Origin: Thermoleptolyngbya sichuanensis A183
GTDB taxonomy: Bacteria; Cyanobacteriota; Cyanobacteriia; Elainellales; Elainellaceae
DNA: 64,000 bases
Direction: 5' to 3'
Assembly (NCBI RefSeq): GCF_013177315.1
Contig: NZ_CP053661.1
Span: 4,836,001 to 4,900,000 of the forward strand
The number at the start of each line of letters is the position of its first letter. Position 1 is the first letter of the stretch. The notes below the pieces were generated by a model, which did no database searches, was not told where the DNA came from, and saw only the letters and a list, made by a program, of their open reading frames with translations. A program made the translations under genes and the position numbers. Of this stretch, positions 47,662 to 60,340 are shown in pieces.

Positions 47662-48708
47662 CTATGGATGAATTTGTCCGTCGGGCATCGTCGCCCCGCT
47701 CAAGTTCGCCCCATCAAGCTGGGCTTCCCAAAGGTTTGAATGTCGTAAGTTTGCCTGTCGCAAATCTGCCCTACACAAGTTGGCATGGCTTAGATTCGCC
47801 ATGCTCAAGTCGGCCCGAAAAAGACTCGTGTTAGATAAATTTGCTTCATTAAGCGCGGCTTCGCGCAGGTCAGCTTCCGTCATGACGCTCGCCCTCAGGT
47901 CTGCGGTGTAGAGATTTGCGCCAATTAGATTCGTGCCAATCAGAATGGAGTCGCCCAGGCTTGCATGACTCAGGTTCGCCATACACAGGTTCGACATGCT
48001 GAGGTTTGCTCGCGTCAAATTAGCCTGATACAGGGTTGCGCCAACCAGGTTTGCCAGACAAATGATTGACATGCCGAGGTTTGCCTGTCGCAAATCTGCT
48101 TCCCGCAGATTGGCTTGACTCAGCGTAGACTCGCGCAGATCGGCCTGACTCAGGTTCGCCCCGTAGAGATTGCTGTGGGAGAGATTGGCGGTATACAGCC
48201 GTGCGCCCCGCAAATCAGCCCGGCTCAGGTCGGCTTCGCGCAAGTTAGACAGGCATAAATCTGCCTGATTCAGCGAAGCATGGCTTAGATTTGCACCCTG
48301 TAGAAGGGCTTCGCGCAGATTTGCCCGTCGCAGGTCTGCGGTACACAGAGTTGCGGTGCAAAGGCTAGCCAGCGACAGGTTGGCGCTACTCAGATTGGCT
48401 TCTCGCAGGTCGGCACCAATTAAGTTGGCTTCGCTCAGGTTGGCTTCGCGCAGATCGGTTGTGTAGAGAATTGCCTCGCGTAGGTCTGCCCGACTCAGAT
48501 CGGCCTGCTGCAAACTCGCCATGCAGAAATCGGCTCGACTCAAGATGCCTTCTCGCAAATCAGCCTGGTTGAGGGTCACTTCGCGCAAGTTGGCCTGGTT
48601 GAGTGCAGCGTAGCTGAGGTTCGGATGAATTTCAGCATGGGTTTCGCGCCATTGGTTCCAGGCGTTTGCGCCCTGTTTCAGCAGAGCTAGATGTTCATGA
48701 TTTGCCAT
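47662..48708 (-). CDS. Pentapeptide-repeat protein
   Basis: 348 aa. After MANHEHLALLKQGANAWNQW, typical of cyanobacterial pentapeptide proteins, there are about 58 tandem A(D/N)LxX repeats (for example ADLREANLSEANLIGADLRE), long enough for a right-handed quadrilateral beta-helix of roughly 14 coils. Biochemical role unknown. The frame is open 24 codons further upstream, but the conserved ATG at 48708 is preferred. The gene also forms an internally repetitive DNA stretch. Confidence 0.93.
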   Translation of the reverse strand: MANHEHLALLKQGANAWNQWRETHAEIHPNLSYAALNQANLREVTLNQADLREGILSRADFCMASLQQADLSRADLREAILYTTDLREANLSEANLIGADLREANLSSANLSLASLCTATLCTADLRRANLREALLQGANLSHASLNQADLCLSNLREADLSRADLRGARLYTANLSHSNLYGANLSQADLRESTLSQANLREADLRQANLGMSIICLANLVGATLYQANLTRANLSMSNLCMANLSHASLGDSILIGTNLIGANLYTADLRASVMTEADLREAALNEANLSNTSLFRADLSMANLSHANLCRADLRQANLRHSNLWEAQLDGANLSGATMPDGQIHP

Positions 48709-48867
48709 GAGTGGTGCATCTCTTTTGCAAACTGCCAGAACGCGAAACTGGAGACAGGACGGCGCAGATGTCTTTGGCAAAATCTCAGGCTGGTCAGCAG
48801 GAGGATTTTCGGGCGGTTACTGGTTGAAGATGGTTGCGCCAAGGGGGGAATTTCAGGAGATTTCCAT

Positions 48868-49391: not shown

Positions 49392-51368
49392 TTAGAATGC
49401 CAGCGGTTGGTCTTGTGGCACAGCACCAATGCCGGGAGCTAGCTGATTTTGCCAGGTGGCGATCGCCCCTTGAGCCGCATCGTAGGCAGCCGTACCGGGC
49501 GGCACCAGTTGAGCCACCTGCACCGCCTGGGCCAGAGCGCCTGACTGGGCGTGGATATTCGCCAAGTTCAAAATTTGCTGACTCCATCCGGCGATCGCCT
49601 GCTGAGCCGCTTGATAGGTATTGGCGCGATCGCTGGGCACGAGTTGGGCAGCGGCGATCGCCGCCCGATAGTTGTTGGCCGCCAGCCACAGGTCGCCTCC
49701 GTTGCGCTGCATGGCTCGACCCGATGCCATATCCAAAATCACCTGGCTCCAGCGATCAATCGCCTGCTGCGCGTCTTTATACAGCGGCTGATCGGGGCGG
49801 ATTTGCCGCAGCAGTCGAATCGACTCTGAAATTTCCGATACCTGATTGCTCGACGATTCGGCCCGCACCTTGGTCAGGTTTGCCATCGCCGCATTCATGA
49901 TGTCACGATCTGACAGGGGCGGCGCAGGCTCGCTCACAGGGCGGGTATCCGGCACAGACGATGCAGGAGATTGGGCAGGGAGGTTCAGCGAATTGGCTGC
50001 TGGGTTTGCCACCGGAACCGGAGTGGGCAGCGGTGCAGGCGACGGGGCGGTGGAAGTAATCGAGTTGGCGGCGGGGTTTGGCAGCGAGGTTCCAGCAGGC
50101 GAGGCAACTACACCTGGACTGGGCTGCACGGCAATGGTCTGACCGTCGGAGGGCGATCGCAAGACCGTGCCCACATTTCGGACAATCACCGCCGCCATCA
50201 ACAGCGACAAAAGCCCGCCCCCCCAGCGCACCAGTTGCCACCAAGAGCGCTCTTCAGAAGCATCAGAGGCGATCGCCACGGGCGTACGGTGGGGTGGGGG
50301 CGGGGGCGGCGCAGGGAGTGATGAAAACGGCGGGAGCGGCGTGTCTGCTGGCTCACGACGGGGTTCTGCCTCCGACACAACCGGAATCGGAGGCGGAGGT
50401 GGCGTAACTCGCTCGACGGGGCGATCCTGCCGAATTGCAGGGGTTTGCAAGCTGGGATTTTGCGGGCTGGAGTGTCGCCAGTCGGGGTGGGATCCAGGAC
50501 TTTGGGAGGGCTGCCACTCCGACCCTGACCGACGAGGCGGTTCATCCCGATGAGGAACAGGCTGCACCCGATCCGGAGCGTCCACAGGCGCAAAAGATGG
50601 CAGAGAGGGCGACATCGTTTCCTTTCCGGGCACGATTAGCTGATAGCGCAGGCTATCTGGAATGATGGCCAGCGGCTCTTGGCGGGGTCGCCAGTGGTGG
50701 TCGCTTAGCTCTGGCAGGCGCGTTTGCAAAAACTGCACCAGATGCTCCAGCGTGACGCAGCCCGGACGCTTTAGCCCCTCCAGCACCGCAGCCGTAAACA
50801 ATCCGTGGCGCAAGGCAATGGTTTCGTGAGAAAGCTGGTTTTGACGGCATGACAGCAGCGTGGGAATGCCATATTGTTCGGCCAGGGCTGCGGTATGGGT
50901 GCCTGCGCTGACCCCCGACAGCACGCCCTGGCTCCGGTTCATGTCCAGCAGCACGAGCAGGTTTTTCGTCGGCGCTGCCTGCAACAAGGAATAGAGAAAT
51001 TCGACCGAAAGCCCCGTCTGGGCAGGCTGGGTGGGGTCGCTATCTTGAGGCATTAAATAGTCTTTTCCTTGATAGTGCATCCCGTAGCCGCTGAAAAATA
51101 GCCAGAGGCAATCGTTGGGCTTGAGCCGCTGGCACACTTGGGCGATCGCCGTTTGGATGCCAGCGCGGTCGGGGGTGGTGGCTCCCCAGGCTGCCGGGGG
51201 CGAGTTATCGGTCAACCGCACACAAGAGTCGGGCAGAAACCCTGCGTCGTTAATCAAACTTTGAATCAAGGACTGGGCATCCCGCTCGGCATAGACGAGG
51301 GGCTGCAACTGCGGATACTGATTAATGCCGATGGCGATCGCCCAGTAGTTTGTCATCGTTTCAGACAC
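49392..51368 (-). CDS. Pseudo-orthocaspase (peptidase C14 fold) with transmembrane and repeat regions
   Basis: 658 aa. The caspase p20-like domain spans about 1-235: YWAIAIGINQYPQLQPLVYA, CLWLFFSGYGMHYQGKDYLM and LLVLLDMNRSQGVLSGVSAG. The catalytic His of SGHG is Tyr95 and the catalytic Cys of the D-x-C-x-S motif is Asn144, so protease activity is not expected. A Pro-rich linker follows, then one membrane segment (WGGGLLSLLMAAVIVRNVGT, about 385-405), another Pro/Ala-rich stretch, and a C-terminal helical region with three related units (DAQQAIDRWSQVILDMASGR, AAQQAIAGWSQQILNLANIH, AAQGAIATWQNQLA). It may act as a membrane-bound binding or scaffold protein. Confidence 0.88.
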   Translation of the reverse strand: MSETMTNYWAIAIGINQYPQLQPLVYAERDAQSLIQSLINDAGFLPDSCVRLTDNSPPAAWGATTPDRAGIQTAIAQVCQRLKPNDCLWLFFSGYGMHYQGKDYLMPQDSDPTQPAQTGLSVEFLYSLLQAAPTKNLLVLLDMNRSQGVLSGVSAGTHTAALAEQYGIPTLLSCRQNQLSHETIALRHGLFTAAVLEGLKRPGCVTLEHLVQFLQTRLPELSDHHWRPRQEPLAIIPDSLRYQLIVPGKETMSPSLPSFAPVDAPDRVQPVPHRDEPPRRSGSEWQPSQSPGSHPDWRHSSPQNPSLQTPAIRQDRPVERVTPPPPPIPVVSEAEPRREPADTPLPPFSSLPAPPPPPPHRTPVAIASDASEERSWWQLVRWGGGLLSLLMAAVIVRNVGTVLRSPSDGQTIAVQPSPGVVASPAGTSLPNPAANSITSTAPSPAPLPTPVPVANPAANSLNLPAQSPASSVPDTRPVSEPAPPLSDRDIMNAAMANLTKVRAESSSNQVSEISESIRLLRQIRPDQPLYKDAQQAIDRWSQVILDMASGRAMQRNGGDLWLAANNYRAAIAAAQLVPSDRANTYQAAQQAIAGWSQQILNLANIHAQSGALAQAVQVAQLVPPGTAAYDAAQGAIATWQNQLAPGIGAVPQDQPLAF

Positions 51369-54826: not shown

Positions 54827-57800
54827 CTAGGAGCTAACCAGAACTTGGGCAGACACCCCAGACTGAACTGGAATTTGCACCACAAACTCTGCGCCCTGAC
54901 CTGGCGAACTGTGGCATTCTAGGGTTCCGCCATGATTTTCTGCCACGATCTGGTAGCTGATGGATAGCCCCAGTCCGGTTCCCTTGCCCTCTGGCTTGGT
55001 GGTGAAAAAGGCATCAAACAGCTTTTGCCGGACGGCTTCGCTCATGCCCGGCCCATTGTCGGCGATGCGGATTGTGACGGCATGGTCGGTGGCGGTTGTG
55101 GAAATCGTAATCGTATTGGGGTGTTGCTCTAGCTCCGAGAGAGATTTCCCGGCGTTGCCCTCTTCCATCGCGTCGATGGCGTTGGCAATCAGGTTCATAA
55201 ACACCTGGTTGATTTGCCCGCTGTAGCACTCGACGGGCGGCAGCGTGCCGTAGTTCTTGATGATGCGGATGGCGGGGCGATCTGGCTTTGCCTTGAGCCG
55301 ATGGGACAGGATGAGCAGCGTGGTGTCTAGACCTGCGTGCAGATCGGCGGGGCGCTTTTCGCTGCCGTCGGCGCGGGAGTAGGTTCGCAGCGATTGCATG
55401 ATATCCCGAATGCGATCCGTGCCTAGCTTCATGGAGTTCACCATTTTGGGCAGATCATCGAGCAAAAATTCCAGGTCTATCTCCTCAGCGTGGTCTTGAA
55501 TCGCCGCGATAGGTGGGGCGTAGTGCTGCTGATACAGGGTTAGATGTTCCACCAGATCTTCGATATAGCGGGTGGCGTGGGCCAGGTTGCCTGCGATAAA
55601 GCTGACGGGATTGTTGACCTCGTGGGCGACCCCGGCCACTAGTTGCCCCAGTTGGGAGATTTTTTCAGTTTGCACGAGTTGCGCCTGGGTTTGCTGGAGC
55701 TTTTGCAGCGAGTCTTGGAGGCACTGGGATTTGTCCTGTTCGCGGGCGTAGAGTTGAGCATTTTCTAGGGCGATCGCCGCTTGGGTCGTCAGCAGTTTCA
55801 GTAGTTCTAGCCGCGACGGTGGAAAGGCGTTGGCCGTCAGCGGGTTTTCCAGATACACCACGCCCGTCCGCTTGCCCTGATAGAGAATCGGGGCACATAG
55901 GACAGACTTGGGCTGGTGCTGCTGGAGATAGCGATCGCCCTCAAATCGCGCATCGTTGGCTGCATCTGACAGCACCAGCGGCTGCTGCGTTCGCCATACC
56001 AAGTGGATCATCGACACGGGCACATCGCGGCTGCCCTCCAGCGGGGTCGATTGCAGCACCACAGCCATCTGGTCTGGGTTTGTGTCGATCGCCTCGATTC
56101 GCAACTGACCCGCCTTTTCCAAAATCAGGCAGCCCTTTTGTGCGCCTGCATTTTCCAGGATGATCGAGAGAATGCGGCTGAGCAGCGCGTCGAGATGCAG
56201 TTCGCTGGCGATCGCCTCGGCGGCTTTCATCACCGTAGACAAATCGAGGGAATCGCGCTGGCTGCTGGTGCTGCGGGTGGAGCAGGTGGTGGTCGCAGTA
56301 GCGGTGATGGTGGCATCGACGGCTGGAGCGCTGCTGGCTTCGTCCTGCTGGAGTAGCAGAGGATGCTCGGCAGTGAGCGCATGAACTTTGGCGATCGCCC
56401 CCCACTGGATATAGCCGTAGTAGGCATCGATGAGATAATTCTGGGAAATGCGGGGCTTGCCCAACGCCGCGTAAAACTGGGCAGCCCGTTCGCAGGCCAC
56501 AGCCGCTTCGTGAATAAAGCCCTCTTCGGTGGCGCGGGCAATGGCGCGATCGTAGCAATCCATCGCCGTCTGGCGATCGCCCCGAATCTGGGCCAACTCC
56601 GCTGCCAGCAGGTCGGCCTTGTGCTGGTGGTTCATCGGCGCAGACGCGGCCCACTGCTGCACGGTCGTCTGGCAGGTGAGCACCTGCGGCATCCACTCCG
56701 CTTGTTGGGCGGGCGTGCCGTGGGGATAGGCAGCCAGCAGCGCCAGCCCGTAGTAGAACCAGTAGACGGGCGTGGCCATCAGCCCCGCGCCGCAGCCCGC
56801 GTATGATTCCCCGCGCTTGGCAAAGGCGATCGCCGCCTCATATTCGCCAAACCAGTAGTGCAGCATCAGCTTGGCCAGGTGAAACACAAAGAGCGCCTGG
56901 AAATTTTGCGACTCTTCCCAGCGGGGCAGCATCTCAATTTCATCAAACGCCTCACCCACCAGCAGCGTGGGATTGTCCGATCGTCCCAGCAGGTTGAGCG
57001 TTACCTGTTGCCACATGCGAGCCGCAGAGAGTTGAAAATGCTGCTTGAGCTGAAGCAGCAGCGCTCCATACTGCACCTGGTTTTCGTAGTGACTTTCCAG
57101 CACCTCGCCGCTAAAAAATCGGTGATCGCAATAGTTCATGATCGAATAGCTGACATAGCCCAGGTCGCCCGTTTCCAGCCCGACGTGGATGCCGTCTACC
57201 AGCGGCACAAAGGTATTTCGGATGTGTTCCTTGTGGTGCCGTACGAAGCACTCAAACAGTTGCACAATGCTGCATTGCCACTCGCGACACTGATAGCGCT
57301 CCAGCAGCTTCATGGCAATTTGCCCCGCCTCGTAGGCGCGGTCTGCGGCAGGAATCGTACTGCAATACCAGGCGTAGGTGGCGTAGCTGGGGGCGGCTAA
57401 GGGCGAATGTCCATAACGGACACAGAGTTCAAGCTGCGTAGTGGCAACCCAGCGAAACACCTCTGGCTGAGTTTGATACGCTGTGCCCGTCACCGCGTTC
57501 AAGATCCTCAAGGCTGCAAGCTTTTCGGGATCGGTCAGTTCGGGTACGGCATCCAGCCCATCCAGCGCAGGCAGGGAAATTTGGAAATGATCGTGGTTCA
57601 GCGGGCTGGCGATGGTAAAGCCCAGCAGCATCAGCCCGTCGAAGGCAGCCGTGAGCGATCGCCACATTTGCAGTTGGGCAATGTAAATCTGGATCTTTAG
57701 CTCGTAGGACTGCACCGCATCAAGAACACTGGCGGCCTGTTGCTCTAGGGTATTGGCGATCGCCTCGGCTTCGTCATACCGCGTCACCAAGTAAGCCGCC

Positions 57801-60340
57801 TGGGCCGCTTCGGCATGGAGGGCCAGCGTCAGGTCATAGTGCGCGGTCCAGGCGTTTTCGGGGAGGAGCGATCGCCCCTGTCGTAAAAAGTTGTCCGCTG
57901 TTTCATAAGCCGCCGCTGCCTTGGCCCGCCGCCCCGCCGCCAGGTTCAGCCGCACCAGTTCTATCCGCTCCTGCGGCTCGTTAATCAGGTCAGTCCCATA
58001 GTTCAGCGCGTTGACGATTTCAAATAGCCCTTCAAACTGGCCCGTGGCGCGATCCGCAGCGGGAATCGTTTGCAGCAGCAGCCGACCGATTTGCAGGTGC
58101 GTGGCCGGGCGATCGCCCTCAGCGATCAGCGAATAGGCCGCCTGCTGCACCCGGTCATGCAAAAAGCGGTAGGTAAAGGGCTGCTGGCCTCCCGTTTGGG
58201 CGGTGTCAGCCAGGAATTGACCCAACTCCTCTTCAGAAAACAGCAGGGGAATTTTGTAATCCTGGCTGAGGGGCAAGATAAACCGCTCCTCTAGCGCAGG
58301 TTGCAAGGCCCGTGCCAGCGCCGACAGGCTGAGTCCGCTGATCGCCACTAGCGTTGGCAGCGTAAAGCGATCGCCCACACAGGCCGCCAGCTTCAGCACG
58401 GTCTGCGTCTCTGGCGGCAGCTTCACCAAATTACCCGCCACCAGATCCACCACCGACAGGTCGGCAATGCCCGTCTCTTGAATCGCCTGCACATCCCACC
58501 GCCAACCCCCCGTGGCAAAATCAAAGGTGAGCAGTTTCTCCTGATACAGCGTCTTCAGCAGTTGCGTCAAAAAGAAGGGATTGCCCTGAGTTTTGGCAAA
58601 CAGCATTTCTGCCAGCGGGTACAAGTATTCTGAGGGCTGTTCTTCGGCTCTCCGGCTCCGAGAGGCCCGCTTGCCCGTTAGCGCGTCTTGCACCAGCCGT
58701 TGCACAGACTCCAGCGGTAGCGGCTTCAGCACGATTGGGGTCACCACGCCGCCCGCCTGCTGAATTTCCTCCACGGTCTTCATCAGCGGGTGAACCGGGC
58801 TGACCTCATTATCCCGATATGCGCCAATCATCAGCAAGTGGCGGCTATCTGGGTTGGACATCAACGCCTGAATCAGCTTTAGCGAGGCCGAATCGGCCCA
58901 CTGCAAATCGTCCAGAAACAGCACCAGCGGATGAGTCGGCTGGGCAAAGACCCCCACCAGCGATTGAAACACCTGGAGAAAGCGGTTCTGTGCTTCCGTT
59001 GCGCCCAGTTCGGGTACGGGCGGCTGGGAACCCAGAATTAACTCCATCTGGGGAATCACGTCAATTAGCACTTGCCCATTGGAGCCTAGCGCATCGAGCA
59101 GCTTTTCGCGCCAGATCTCTAGGCGATCGCCACTTTCCGTCAGCACTTGCTGCGTCAGGGATTGAAACGCCTGAATAATCGAGGCATAGGGCACATTCCG
59201 CTTGTACTGGTCAAACTTGCCGCTAATAAAGTAGCCCCGCTGCCGCACAACGGGCTTGTGGATTTCGTTAACCAGAGAAGATTTGCCAATCCCCGAATAG
59301 CCCGACACTAGCATCAGTTCGCCGCGGCCGCTTGCCTCGCCGCCCAGCGTCAGCAGCGGGCTGGTATTGGCCGCCACCCGATCAAACGCCGCCAGCAGCG
59401 CCGCCACCTCCGACTCGCGGCCGTAGAGGGTTTTGGGAATCAGCAGTTGGGACGAGCGATCGCGCTCTCCGGGCGTAAAGTCAGGAATCGTCTTGCTCTC
59501 CATCAGAGCATCGCGGCATCGCTCCAAGTCAGCTAGCAGCCCCGCCGCGCTCTGGTAGCGATCTTCCGCATTTTTGGCCATGAGCTTGTGAACAATGGCG
59601 GCGATCGCCCCCGGCACGTCCGGGTTCAAACTCCGCAGCGGCGGCGGCGCTTTGGCGATGTGGCAATGCACCAGTTCCAGCGGGTCGTCTCCTCGAAACG
59701 GCAGCCGCCCCGTCAGCAGTTCGTACAGCGTAATGCCCAGGGAATAGAAGTCGCTGCGATAGTCCAGCGTCCGGTTCATCCGCCCCGTCTGCTCCGGCGA
59801 CATATAGACCAGCGTTCCCTCAAGCTGGTTTAGCTCCTGCGGCAGGGTCAGCTCTTCGCCCAAGCGCGAGGCAATGCTAAAGTCCGTGAGCTTTACTTCA
59901 CCTGTTTCCTCGTTGAGGAGGATGTTAGAAGGCTTAATGTCTTTGTGAATAATGCGAGCCTGCTGAAGCGAGGCCAGCGCTTGAGTCAACTGAATCGCGA
60001 TATTCAACACCCGCGCCGGATCGAGGATCTTGCACTTGCGGTTGGCCAAAACCTGCTTGAGCGATCGCCCCCCAAAGTCCTCCAACACCAGCACGGCCCG
60101 ATGCCCATGCGTTTCCAGCCCGTATACCCGCACCACACCGGGCAAATCGAGATTAGCCGCCACCTGATACTCGTGCTTTAGCCGGGTAATCTGCTCCAGG
60201 GTAGGATGCTCCGCCCGCAACACCTTGAGAATGAACGGCTGCTGGGTAATCTGGGAAACCGCCCGATACAGCACCGTATTCACGCCTTCGTGAACCAAGT
60301 CTAGAGACTGATAACCTAAAATCTCAATCGTTCCGTGCAT
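54827..60340 (-). CDS. Ser/Thr kinase-AAA ATPase-GAF-histidine kinase multidomain sensor
   Basis: 1837 aa. N-terminal protein kinase: Lys39 in FILKVLR, IIHKDIKPSNILL (132-134 HKD), DFSIASRL in place of DFG, GTLVYMSPEQTGR. Then an STAND-type ATPase with GYSGIGKSS (347-355) and LFLDDLQWAD, followed by a long helical region of about 800 residues. GAF domain: AQKGCLILEKAGQLRIEAID and SVLCAPILYQGKRTGVVYLE. A coiled coil leads into the histidine kinase: QLGQLVAGVAHEVNNPVSFI, VFMNLIANAIDAME, IADNGPGMSEAVRQKLFDAF and GKGTGLGLSISYQIV. This is the cyanobacterial trifunctional family (HstK-like) that links Ser/Thr and His signalling. Ligand unknown; no partner regulator beside it. Confidence 0.93.
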   Translation of the reverse strand: MHGTIEILGYQSLDLVHEGVNTVLYRAVSQITQQPFILKVLRAEHPTLEQITRLKHEYQVAANLDLPGVVRVYGLETHGHRAVLVLEDFGGRSLKQVLANRKCKILDPARVLNIAIQLTQALASLQQARIIHKDIKPSNILLNEETGEVKLTDFSIASRLGEELTLPQELNQLEGTLVYMSPEQTGRMNRTLDYRSDFYSLGITLYELLTGRLPFRGDDPLELVHCHIAKAPPPLRSLNPDVPGAIAAIVHKLMAKNAEDRYQSAAGLLADLERCRDALMESKTIPDFTPGERDRSSQLLIPKTLYGRESEVAALLAAFDRVAANTSPLLTLGGEASGRGELMLVSGYSGIGKSSLVNEIHKPVVRQRGYFISGKFDQYKRNVPYASIIQAFQSLTQQVLTESGDRLEIWREKLLDALGSNGQVLIDVIPQMELILGSQPPVPELGATEAQNRFLQVFQSLVGVFAQPTHPLVLFLDDLQWADSASLKLIQALMSNPDSRHLLMIGAYRDNEVSPVHPLMKTVEEIQQAGGVVTPIVLKPLPLESVQRLVQDALTGKRASRSRRAEEQPSEYLYPLAEMLFAKTQGNPFFLTQLLKTLYQEKLLTFDFATGGWRWDVQAIQETGIADLSVVDLVAGNLVKLPPETQTVLKLAACVGDRFTLPTLVAISGLSLSALARALQPALEERFILPLSQDYKIPLLFSEEELGQFLADTAQTGGQQPFTYRFLHDRVQQAAYSLIAEGDRPATHLQIGRLLLQTIPAADRATGQFEGLFEIVNALNYGTDLINEPQERIELVRLNLAAGRRAKAAAAYETADNFLRQGRSLLPENAWTAHYDLTLALHAEAAQAAYLVTRYDEAEAIANTLEQQAASVLDAVQSYELKIQIYIAQLQMWRSLTAAFDGLMLLGFTIASPLNHDHFQISLPALDGLDAVPELTDPEKLAALRILNAVTGTAYQTQPEVFRWVATTQLELCVRYGHSPLAAPSYATYAWYCSTIPAADRAYEAGQIAMKLLERYQCREWQCSIVQLFECFVRHHKEHIRNTFVPLVDGIHVGLETGDLGYVSYSIMNYCDHRFFSGEVLESHYENQVQYGALLLQLKQHFQLSAARMWQQVTLNLLGRSDNPTLLVGEAFDEIEMLPRWEESQNFQALFVFHLAKLMLHYWFGEYEAAIAFAKRGESYAGCGAGLMATPVYWFYYGLALLAAYPHGTPAQQAEWMPQVLTCQTTVQQWAASAPMNHQHKADLLAAELAQIRGDRQTAMDCYDRAIARATEEGFIHEAAVACERAAQFYAALGKPRISQNYLIDAYYGYIQWGAIAKVHALTAEHPLLLQQDEASSAPAVDATITATATTTCSTRSTSSQRDSLDLSTVMKAAEAIASELHLDALLSRILSIILENAGAQKGCLILEKAGQLRIEAIDTNPDQMAVVLQSTPLEGSRDVPVSMIHLVWRTQQPLVLSDAANDARFEGDRYLQQHQPKSVLCAPILYQGKRTGVVYLENPLTANAFPPSRLELLKLLTTQAAIALENAQLYAREQDKSQCLQDSLQKLQQTQAQLVQTEKISQLGQLVAGVAHEVNNPVSFIAGNLAHATRYIEDLVEHLTLYQQHYAPPIAAIQDHAEEIDLEFLLDDLPKMVNSMKLGTDRIRDIMQSLRTYSRADGSEKRPADLHAGLDTTLLILSHRLKAKPDRPAIRIIKNYGTLPPVECYSGQINQVFMNLIANAIDAMEEGNAGKSLSELEQHPNTITISTTATDHAVTIRIADNGPGMSEAVRQKLFDAFFTTKPEGKGTGLGLSISYQIVAENHGGTLECHSSPGQGAEFVVQIPVQSGVSAQVLVSS

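Follow-up and report, generated by a model that had tools for sequence, protein, structure and literature searches.

A YN-type pseudo-orthocaspase of Thermoleptolyngbya sichuanensis A183 with a membrane segment and a predicted TPR-like solenoid, and the association of its clade with HetR

In the window analyzed here (the whole 64,000-nucleotide stretch of contig NZ_CP053661.1 of Thermoleptolyngbya sichuanensis A183), an open reading frame on the reverse strand encodes a pseudo-orthocaspase of 658 amino acids when read from a GTG codon (Table 1). The protein is of the YN type, with Tyr and Asn at the positions of the catalytic His and Cys of active (HC) orthocaspases. The Met at residue 5 is an initiator candidate, kept in 91% of the 95 aligned YN rows among the matches listed. 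The real start is therefore probably the ATG at 51354-51356, in which case the residues at the catalytic positions would be Tyr91 and Asn140. Residue numbers given here are counted from the GTG and may run four too high. The neighbors of the gene encode a pentapeptide-repeat protein (372 aa; 47662-48780, reverse strand, downstream) and a chorismate-binding/aminotransferase-IV enzyme. Elsewhere in the window, a 1837-aa hybrid kinase with Ser/Thr kinase, AAA_16, GAF, HisKA and HATPase domains is encoded at 54827-60340 (reverse strand).

Table 1. Features of the pseudo-orthocaspase gene in window coordinates; residues are counted from the GTG.
Feature	Coordinates	Strand	Basis
Whole ORF, YN pseudo-orthocaspase	49392..51368	-	ORF call, dyad codons, Met5 conservation
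Caspase (p20-type) domain, residues 9-220	50709..51344	-	PF00656 match; model; metacaspase/MALT1 fold
Tyr95 codon (TAC), catalytic His position	51084..51086	-	Translation; alignments
Asn144 codon (AAC), catalytic Cys position	50937..50939	-	Translation; N in 92/94 named orthologues (among the matches listed)
Pro-rich fast-changing linker, p20 to membrane segment, residues 253-376	50241..50612	-	25% Pro; linker dN/dS 0.11-0.35
Single predicted TM segment, residues 385-403	50160..50216	-	Best 19-residue Kyte-Doolittle window
C-terminal TPR-like helical solenoid (predicted), residues 484-652	49413..49919	-	AlphaFold pLDDT 91.2; fold comparison
Helical unit 1, residues 506-552	49713..49853	-	Model helices 23-37, 47-69
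Helical unit 2, residues 560-608	49545..49691	-	Model helices 77-91, 99-125
Helical unit 3, residues 612-643	49440..49535	-	Model helices 129-136, 146-160

An earlier note on this DNA had described a well-preserved caspase fold in which Tyr95 and Asn144 replace the catalytic His and Cys, and our analysis agrees on both points. PF00656 matched residues 9-220 with an E-value of 4.6e-17 (62.9 bits; cut-off, 21.4). AlphaFold models were made for each part separately, and that of residues 1-252 (76-row alignment) had a mean pLDDT of 91.8. The top structural match of this model was Arabidopsis metacaspase 4 (Z 25.5, rmsd 2.3, 220 residues aligned), and MALT1 was also matched. Tyr95 lies within SGYG and Asn144 within LDMNRS, and the two dyad columns were H and C in all 20 HC rows of active sisters. 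Thus, the His-Cys dyad of active orthocaspases is absent from the window protein. Further, no displaced catalytic residue was found: the nearby His98 was H in only 4 of the 95 rows among the matches listed, and no Cys occurred near Asn144 in the clade consensus. The loss of the dyad therefore stands, and the protein is presumably non-proteolytic.

Orthologues were collected by scanning genome_contigs for the motif WxFFSGYG...D(Y/F)xxP, which gave at least 117 stretches. An ORF could not be read in seven (among them L092, which bears the title Candidatus Gracilibacteria), and another 16 were truncated or short. The remaining 94 supplied 75 rows to one alignment (A1) and 76 to the other (A2), in each case with the window protein. 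One of 29 relative loci (L006) had no p20 domain. Asn was present at position 144 in 92 of the 94 complete named orthologues among the matches listed; the exceptions were L178 (Arg; titled Hydrococcus rivularis) and L076 (Lys; a Cyanothece MAG), names that we take to be those of non-filamentous kinds. Tyr95 is Y by construction in rows selected with the motif. A profile search of 290 genomes of the class detected the clade in 132, with scores from about 270 bits upward, and 93 of these have the exact motif. In the 39 clade genomes without it, position 95 was Y in 29, C in seven, H in two and L in one, and position 144 was N in 34, S in three, K in one and A in one; none carried H and C together. 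The Tyr substitution noted earlier is thus kept in the 93 motif-bearing genomes and in 29 of the other 39, and is less strict than had been implied.

In a tree of 71 rows, the YN clade (41 rows) formed one side of a branch with support of 98/99. The nearest group consisted of active HC proteins (85/64), and the class with a TAT-type leader formed a separate branch (100/100). The tree rows exclude the published YN accessions themselves. By its C14 p20 domain, its Tyr and Asn dyad and its single clade, the window protein is assigned to the YN clade as described in the available text of PMC6426788 and PMC8283722, where paired His-to-Tyr and Cys-to-Asn substitutions in cyanobacterial pseudo-orthocaspases are indeed known, as the earlier note had stated. 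In PMC8283722, WP_010997820 is given as the YN protein of Anabaena sp. PCC 7120. The gene and its interpretation are therefore largely known already. The available text of PMC8283722 reports a TM segment, generally C-terminal to the C14 domain, in 37 pseudo-orthocaspases, and that of PMC6426788 describes the YN clade as having no identifiable C-terminal domain. Both, in their available text, restrict the YN form to multicellular species that fix nitrogen. Our protein differs from these descriptions in its conserved, predicted TPR-like solenoid, and its clade in that half of the clade genomes have no nifD/nifE.

The window genome encodes four C14 proteins. Besides the YN protein, these are a distant HC protein with WD40/nSTAND (L051), which alone of the other three keeps H and C, a TAT-type protein with the dyad L/G (L052:3046-5328), and a GUN4 fusion with the dyad R/G (L053:5033-8716). 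The TAT-type protein shares a dead C14 domain with the YN protein, as do the YS pseudo-orthocaspases with a TAT-type leader in general. This class differs from the YN clade in its own branch, its mostly Leu residue at the His position and its variable second position. Among L052 and those 18 homologues whose dyad could be read (L192 was cut before the first dyad position, and L191 repeats L052), the His position was Leu in 17 and Tyr in two, and the Cys position varied among G, S and A. The YN pair thus looks maintained, whereas the TAT-class pair looks to be drifting.

Forty-eight columns were at least 90% conserved in the 95 YN rows, and only three of them (95, 144 and 227) differed from the 20 HC rows among the matches listed; at column 227, Lys of the HC sisters is Arg in the YN proteins. 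D30, D142, R145, S173, S180, E182 and Q230 were common to YN and HC rows. W89, F91, F92, S93, G94, Y95, G96, D103, Y/F104 and P107 are fixed by the search motif; the conserved columns outside it are not conserved by construction. R145, which follows Asn144, was present in 93 of 95 YN rows among the matches listed and in 19 of 20 active sisters. At the second acidic pocket position, the window protein has Asn177, whereas 67 of 95 YN rows among the matches listed have Glu/Asp; HC sisters vary there too. The dN/dS ratio (NG86) of p20 was 0.03-0.16 in seven close pairs with an estimable dS (the eighth, L018/L021, gave none), with only 42 p20 codons covered in the window's own pair. The C-terminus gave a ratio of 0.045-0.15. 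The linker gave 0.11-0.35, with two of the eight close pairs yielding no dS. Thus, both ends of the protein are under purifying selection and are joined by a loose linker. The earlier view of a maintained lineage, and not random decay, is borne out by the single clade, the near-constant Asn, the purifying selection and the absence of H plus C from motif-less members.

The membrane segment and the three similar C-terminal helical units of the earlier note were also recovered. The best TM window begins at residue 385 (Kyte-Doolittle, 1.87). Across the YN rows among the matches listed, 90 of 95 reached 1.6 and the other five 1.28-1.56; the N-terminal flank was the more positive in just 29 of 95, giving no clear topology signal. 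The C-terminal model (residues 484-652) consists of seven helices with three hairpins. Its best Foldseek match had an E-value of 0.03, with no close solved relative, and the best fold comparison was with a designed protein (Z 14.0, about chance level for helical repeats). The top structural matches were TPR and designed repeats, both weak. The window C-terminus matched no Pfam TPR family at E ≤ 0.01, and TPR_19 was detected at that threshold in five of 77 members (best, 8.6e-05). As modeled, the C-terminal repeats form a TPR-like solenoid conserved across the YN clade, for which no curated name reached its cut-off among the matches listed. The module profile detected four further proteins in the window genome (L047, L048, L049 and L050), which likewise carry this repeat in several copies behind one TM segment but have no caspase domain, and for which no Pfam or NCBIfam family reached its cut-off among the matches listed. 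The units are therefore real, and the description of them as unexplained gives way to their placement in a module shared with four own-genome TM proteins. The module is broad in cyanobacteria, being present in 215 of 290 genomes at E ≤ 1e-5.

HetR is a mark of filamentous growth and serves here as a proxy only. With either the profile score or the exact motif as criterion for clade membership, 136 of the 290 genomes were members, and HetR_C was found in 148. Clade and HetR occurred together in 132 genomes, the clade without HetR in four, HetR without the clade in 16 and neither in 138 (Fisher p 3.6e-58, from per-genome counts that are not independent); HetR was thus present in 132 of 136 clade genomes versus 16 of 154 others. 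By family, the clade was found in 17 of 20 HetR-bearing and two of 20 HetR-less families (p 3.4e-06). Among HetR-less genomes of at least 4 Mb, the clade was present in only three of 53, so genome size is not the explanation. Two of these three (G238 and G284) are fragmented, and the other members of their families mostly bear HetR. HetR-less clade members also occur in G041 and G056. Divergent members were left out of the HetR table, and counting them would change it slightly. They are found in the HetR-bearing G057 and G194 (Tyr/Arg), G082 (Tyr/His) and G103 and G112 (Tyr/Asn), and in the HetR-less G277 (Tyr/Gln).

By comparison, 66 of the 136 clade genomes carry nifD or nifE and 70 do not; the clade genomes of the window's own family split into 13 with and 12 without nifD/nifE. 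Within HetR-bearing genomes, the clade was found in 65 of 68 nif-bearing genomes versus 67 of 80 others (p 0.03), a weak tie to nif. The window genome itself has HetR and nifD and fits the published description of a multicellular nitrogen fixer. We conclude that the YN clade is associated with HetR, the filament proxy, and not with nitrogenase, contrary to the two papers, and that the nitrogen-fixing half of the published distribution does not hold in this 290-genome sample.

A divergent gene lies directly upstream of the YN gene in 60 of the 110 named loci whose ORF was read, and in 58 of the 84 named loci where at least 1200 nt upstream was available (among the matches listed in both cases). 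Its product is short, begins like a signal peptide and contains a conserved core (e.g., L079:6379-6993); its family (A3) has invariant Arg, Trp and Tyr positions and reached no Pfam or NCBIfam family at cut-off among the matches listed. In the 132 profile genomes, the neighbor was upstream and divergent within 3.5 kb in 95 and on another contig in nine, with no match listed in 28. The last group includes the window genome, in which no match was obtained at E ≤ 0.001; a conserved gene pair was not found at the window's own locus, where the neighbors differ. In the HetR-bearing G053 (L286:2884-5621), a 419-aa TM and solenoid protein with no caspase domain is divergent to the secreted neighbor gene. 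In the HetR-less G071, the secreted gene has in its vicinity a gene of molybdopterin-oxidoreductase type and a short one resembling, by eye, the Mo-nitro_C neighbor, a setting as in pair-bearing loci but with no clade gene there. Other HetR-less genomes without the clade have a homologue of the secreted neighbor in a different setting. In 45 of 110 named loci among the matches listed, the YN gene is followed downstream by a convergent Mo-nitro_C (PF06967) gene (e.g., L187:615-1076).

We consider it reasonably probable that the YN protein is a non-catalytic single-pass membrane adaptor with a role in the filament, its dead caspase domain facing the cytosol and its solenoid lying outside. Because the conserved orthocaspase residues around the lost catalytic ones are kept, the caspase domain would probably bind a peptide or a partner without cleaving it. 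The loose Pro-rich linker and the single TM helix would join p20 to the solenoid across the membrane, and since an N-terminal signal is absent, p20 is placed on the cytosolic side. In most lineages, the solenoid would probably partner the divergently encoded secreted protein, which the window genome may have lost or never had. The clade would then serve the physiology of the filament (multicellularity) rather than nitrogen fixation. The caspase fold with its lost dyad, the near-constant Asn, the selection pattern, the TM segment, the modeled solenoid and the HetR association all speak for this reading, as do the presence of the neighbor in 95 of 132 genomes and its retention beside the p20-less protein. 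The absence of the neighbor from the window genome, one of the 28 with no match listed, and its homologues in HetR-less, clade-less genomes argue against it. The HetR-less members, the unclear charge topology, Asn177 and the lack of a close solved relative of the solenoid likewise count against the adaptor.

HetF of Anabaena, according to the available text of PMC8406250, is built of CHAT, TM and TPR parts and belongs to the divisome and the cell-cell junctions; it is putatively an active protease, and its active site is important. Like the YN protein, it comes from a filamentous cyanobacterium and combines a caspase-like domain at the N-terminus with one TM segment and a C-terminal domain of TPR type, which in the YN protein is predicted. 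This same order of parts, together with the HetR association, would suit a scaffold of the septum or divisome proper, located like HetF at cell-cell junctions, a reading that we regard as possible but doubtful. Against it, the domain of HetF is CHAT and that of the YN protein PF00656, with no match to the CHAT domain (PF12770) in the window protein at E ≤ 1. Further, neither the solenoid (A2) nor the p20 profile matched any of 13 CHAT-bearing ORFs of the window genome (several read only within the fetched stretch), and we discarded HetF as the homologous origin of the solenoid. On the evidence here, HetF would be the closest architectural analogue and not a homologue. The likeness of the active-site surroundings to those of active sisters would also fit a regulator of active orthocaspases that forms a dimer with an HC enzyme or competes with it for substrates, in the style of c-FLIP and caspase-8; the available text of PMC6426788 discusses c-FLIP and TbMC4 as precedents. 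However, in 80 of the 132 clade genomes the YN protein has the only YN-like C14 domain at E ≤ 1e-45, so it need not act through a close HC sister, and the only HC protein of the window genome is distant and carries WD40 repeats, the other dyads being L/G and R/G. We consider such regulation unlikely, although a more distant HC partner may exist.

A component of stress or death signaling is slightly less likely still. Its precedent is SyOC of Synechocystis, a pro-death pseudo-orthocaspase whose deletion raised oxidative-stress tolerance (available text of PMC7889975), but SyOC appears as Tyr-Gly in the available text of PMC6426788, where a TAT-type leader is ascribed to the YS class, and the TAT class branches apart in our tree. 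Altered catalysis, in which Tyr and Asn would run another reaction such as Asn-mediated self-cleavage, seems very improbable: the constancy of Asn144 and R145 among the matches listed exceeds what loss of function needs, but some members keep the rest of the protein while Tyr is replaced by C, H or L and Asn by S, K, R, A, Q or H, and active sisters have the same R145. Nothing was found in favor of a decaying gene with chance substitutions, which clade-wide conservation, purifying selection and full-length ORFs rule out for practical purposes. To return to the membrane adaptor, we tentatively extend it to an envelope system of two genes peculiar to filamentous cyanobacteria, in which the dead-caspase/TM/solenoid protein and the secreted protein might form a trans-envelope complex for filament structure. 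The pseudo-protease might report on or gate the cytosolic side and could be lost while the extracytoplasmic core stays.

New relative to the published accounts are the solenoid module, the corrected correlate, the gene pair and the finding that only three of 48 conserved columns differ from active sisters; no report of the HetR association or of the divergent neighbor was found in openly licensed PMC text. Pseudo-orthocaspases have no settled function. The correlate of the YN clade moves from nitrogen fixation to filamentous growth, and a candidate partner gene, a natural p20-less variant and a predicted C-terminal module are now defined. The function of the clade is thereby testable in standard filamentous laboratory strains.
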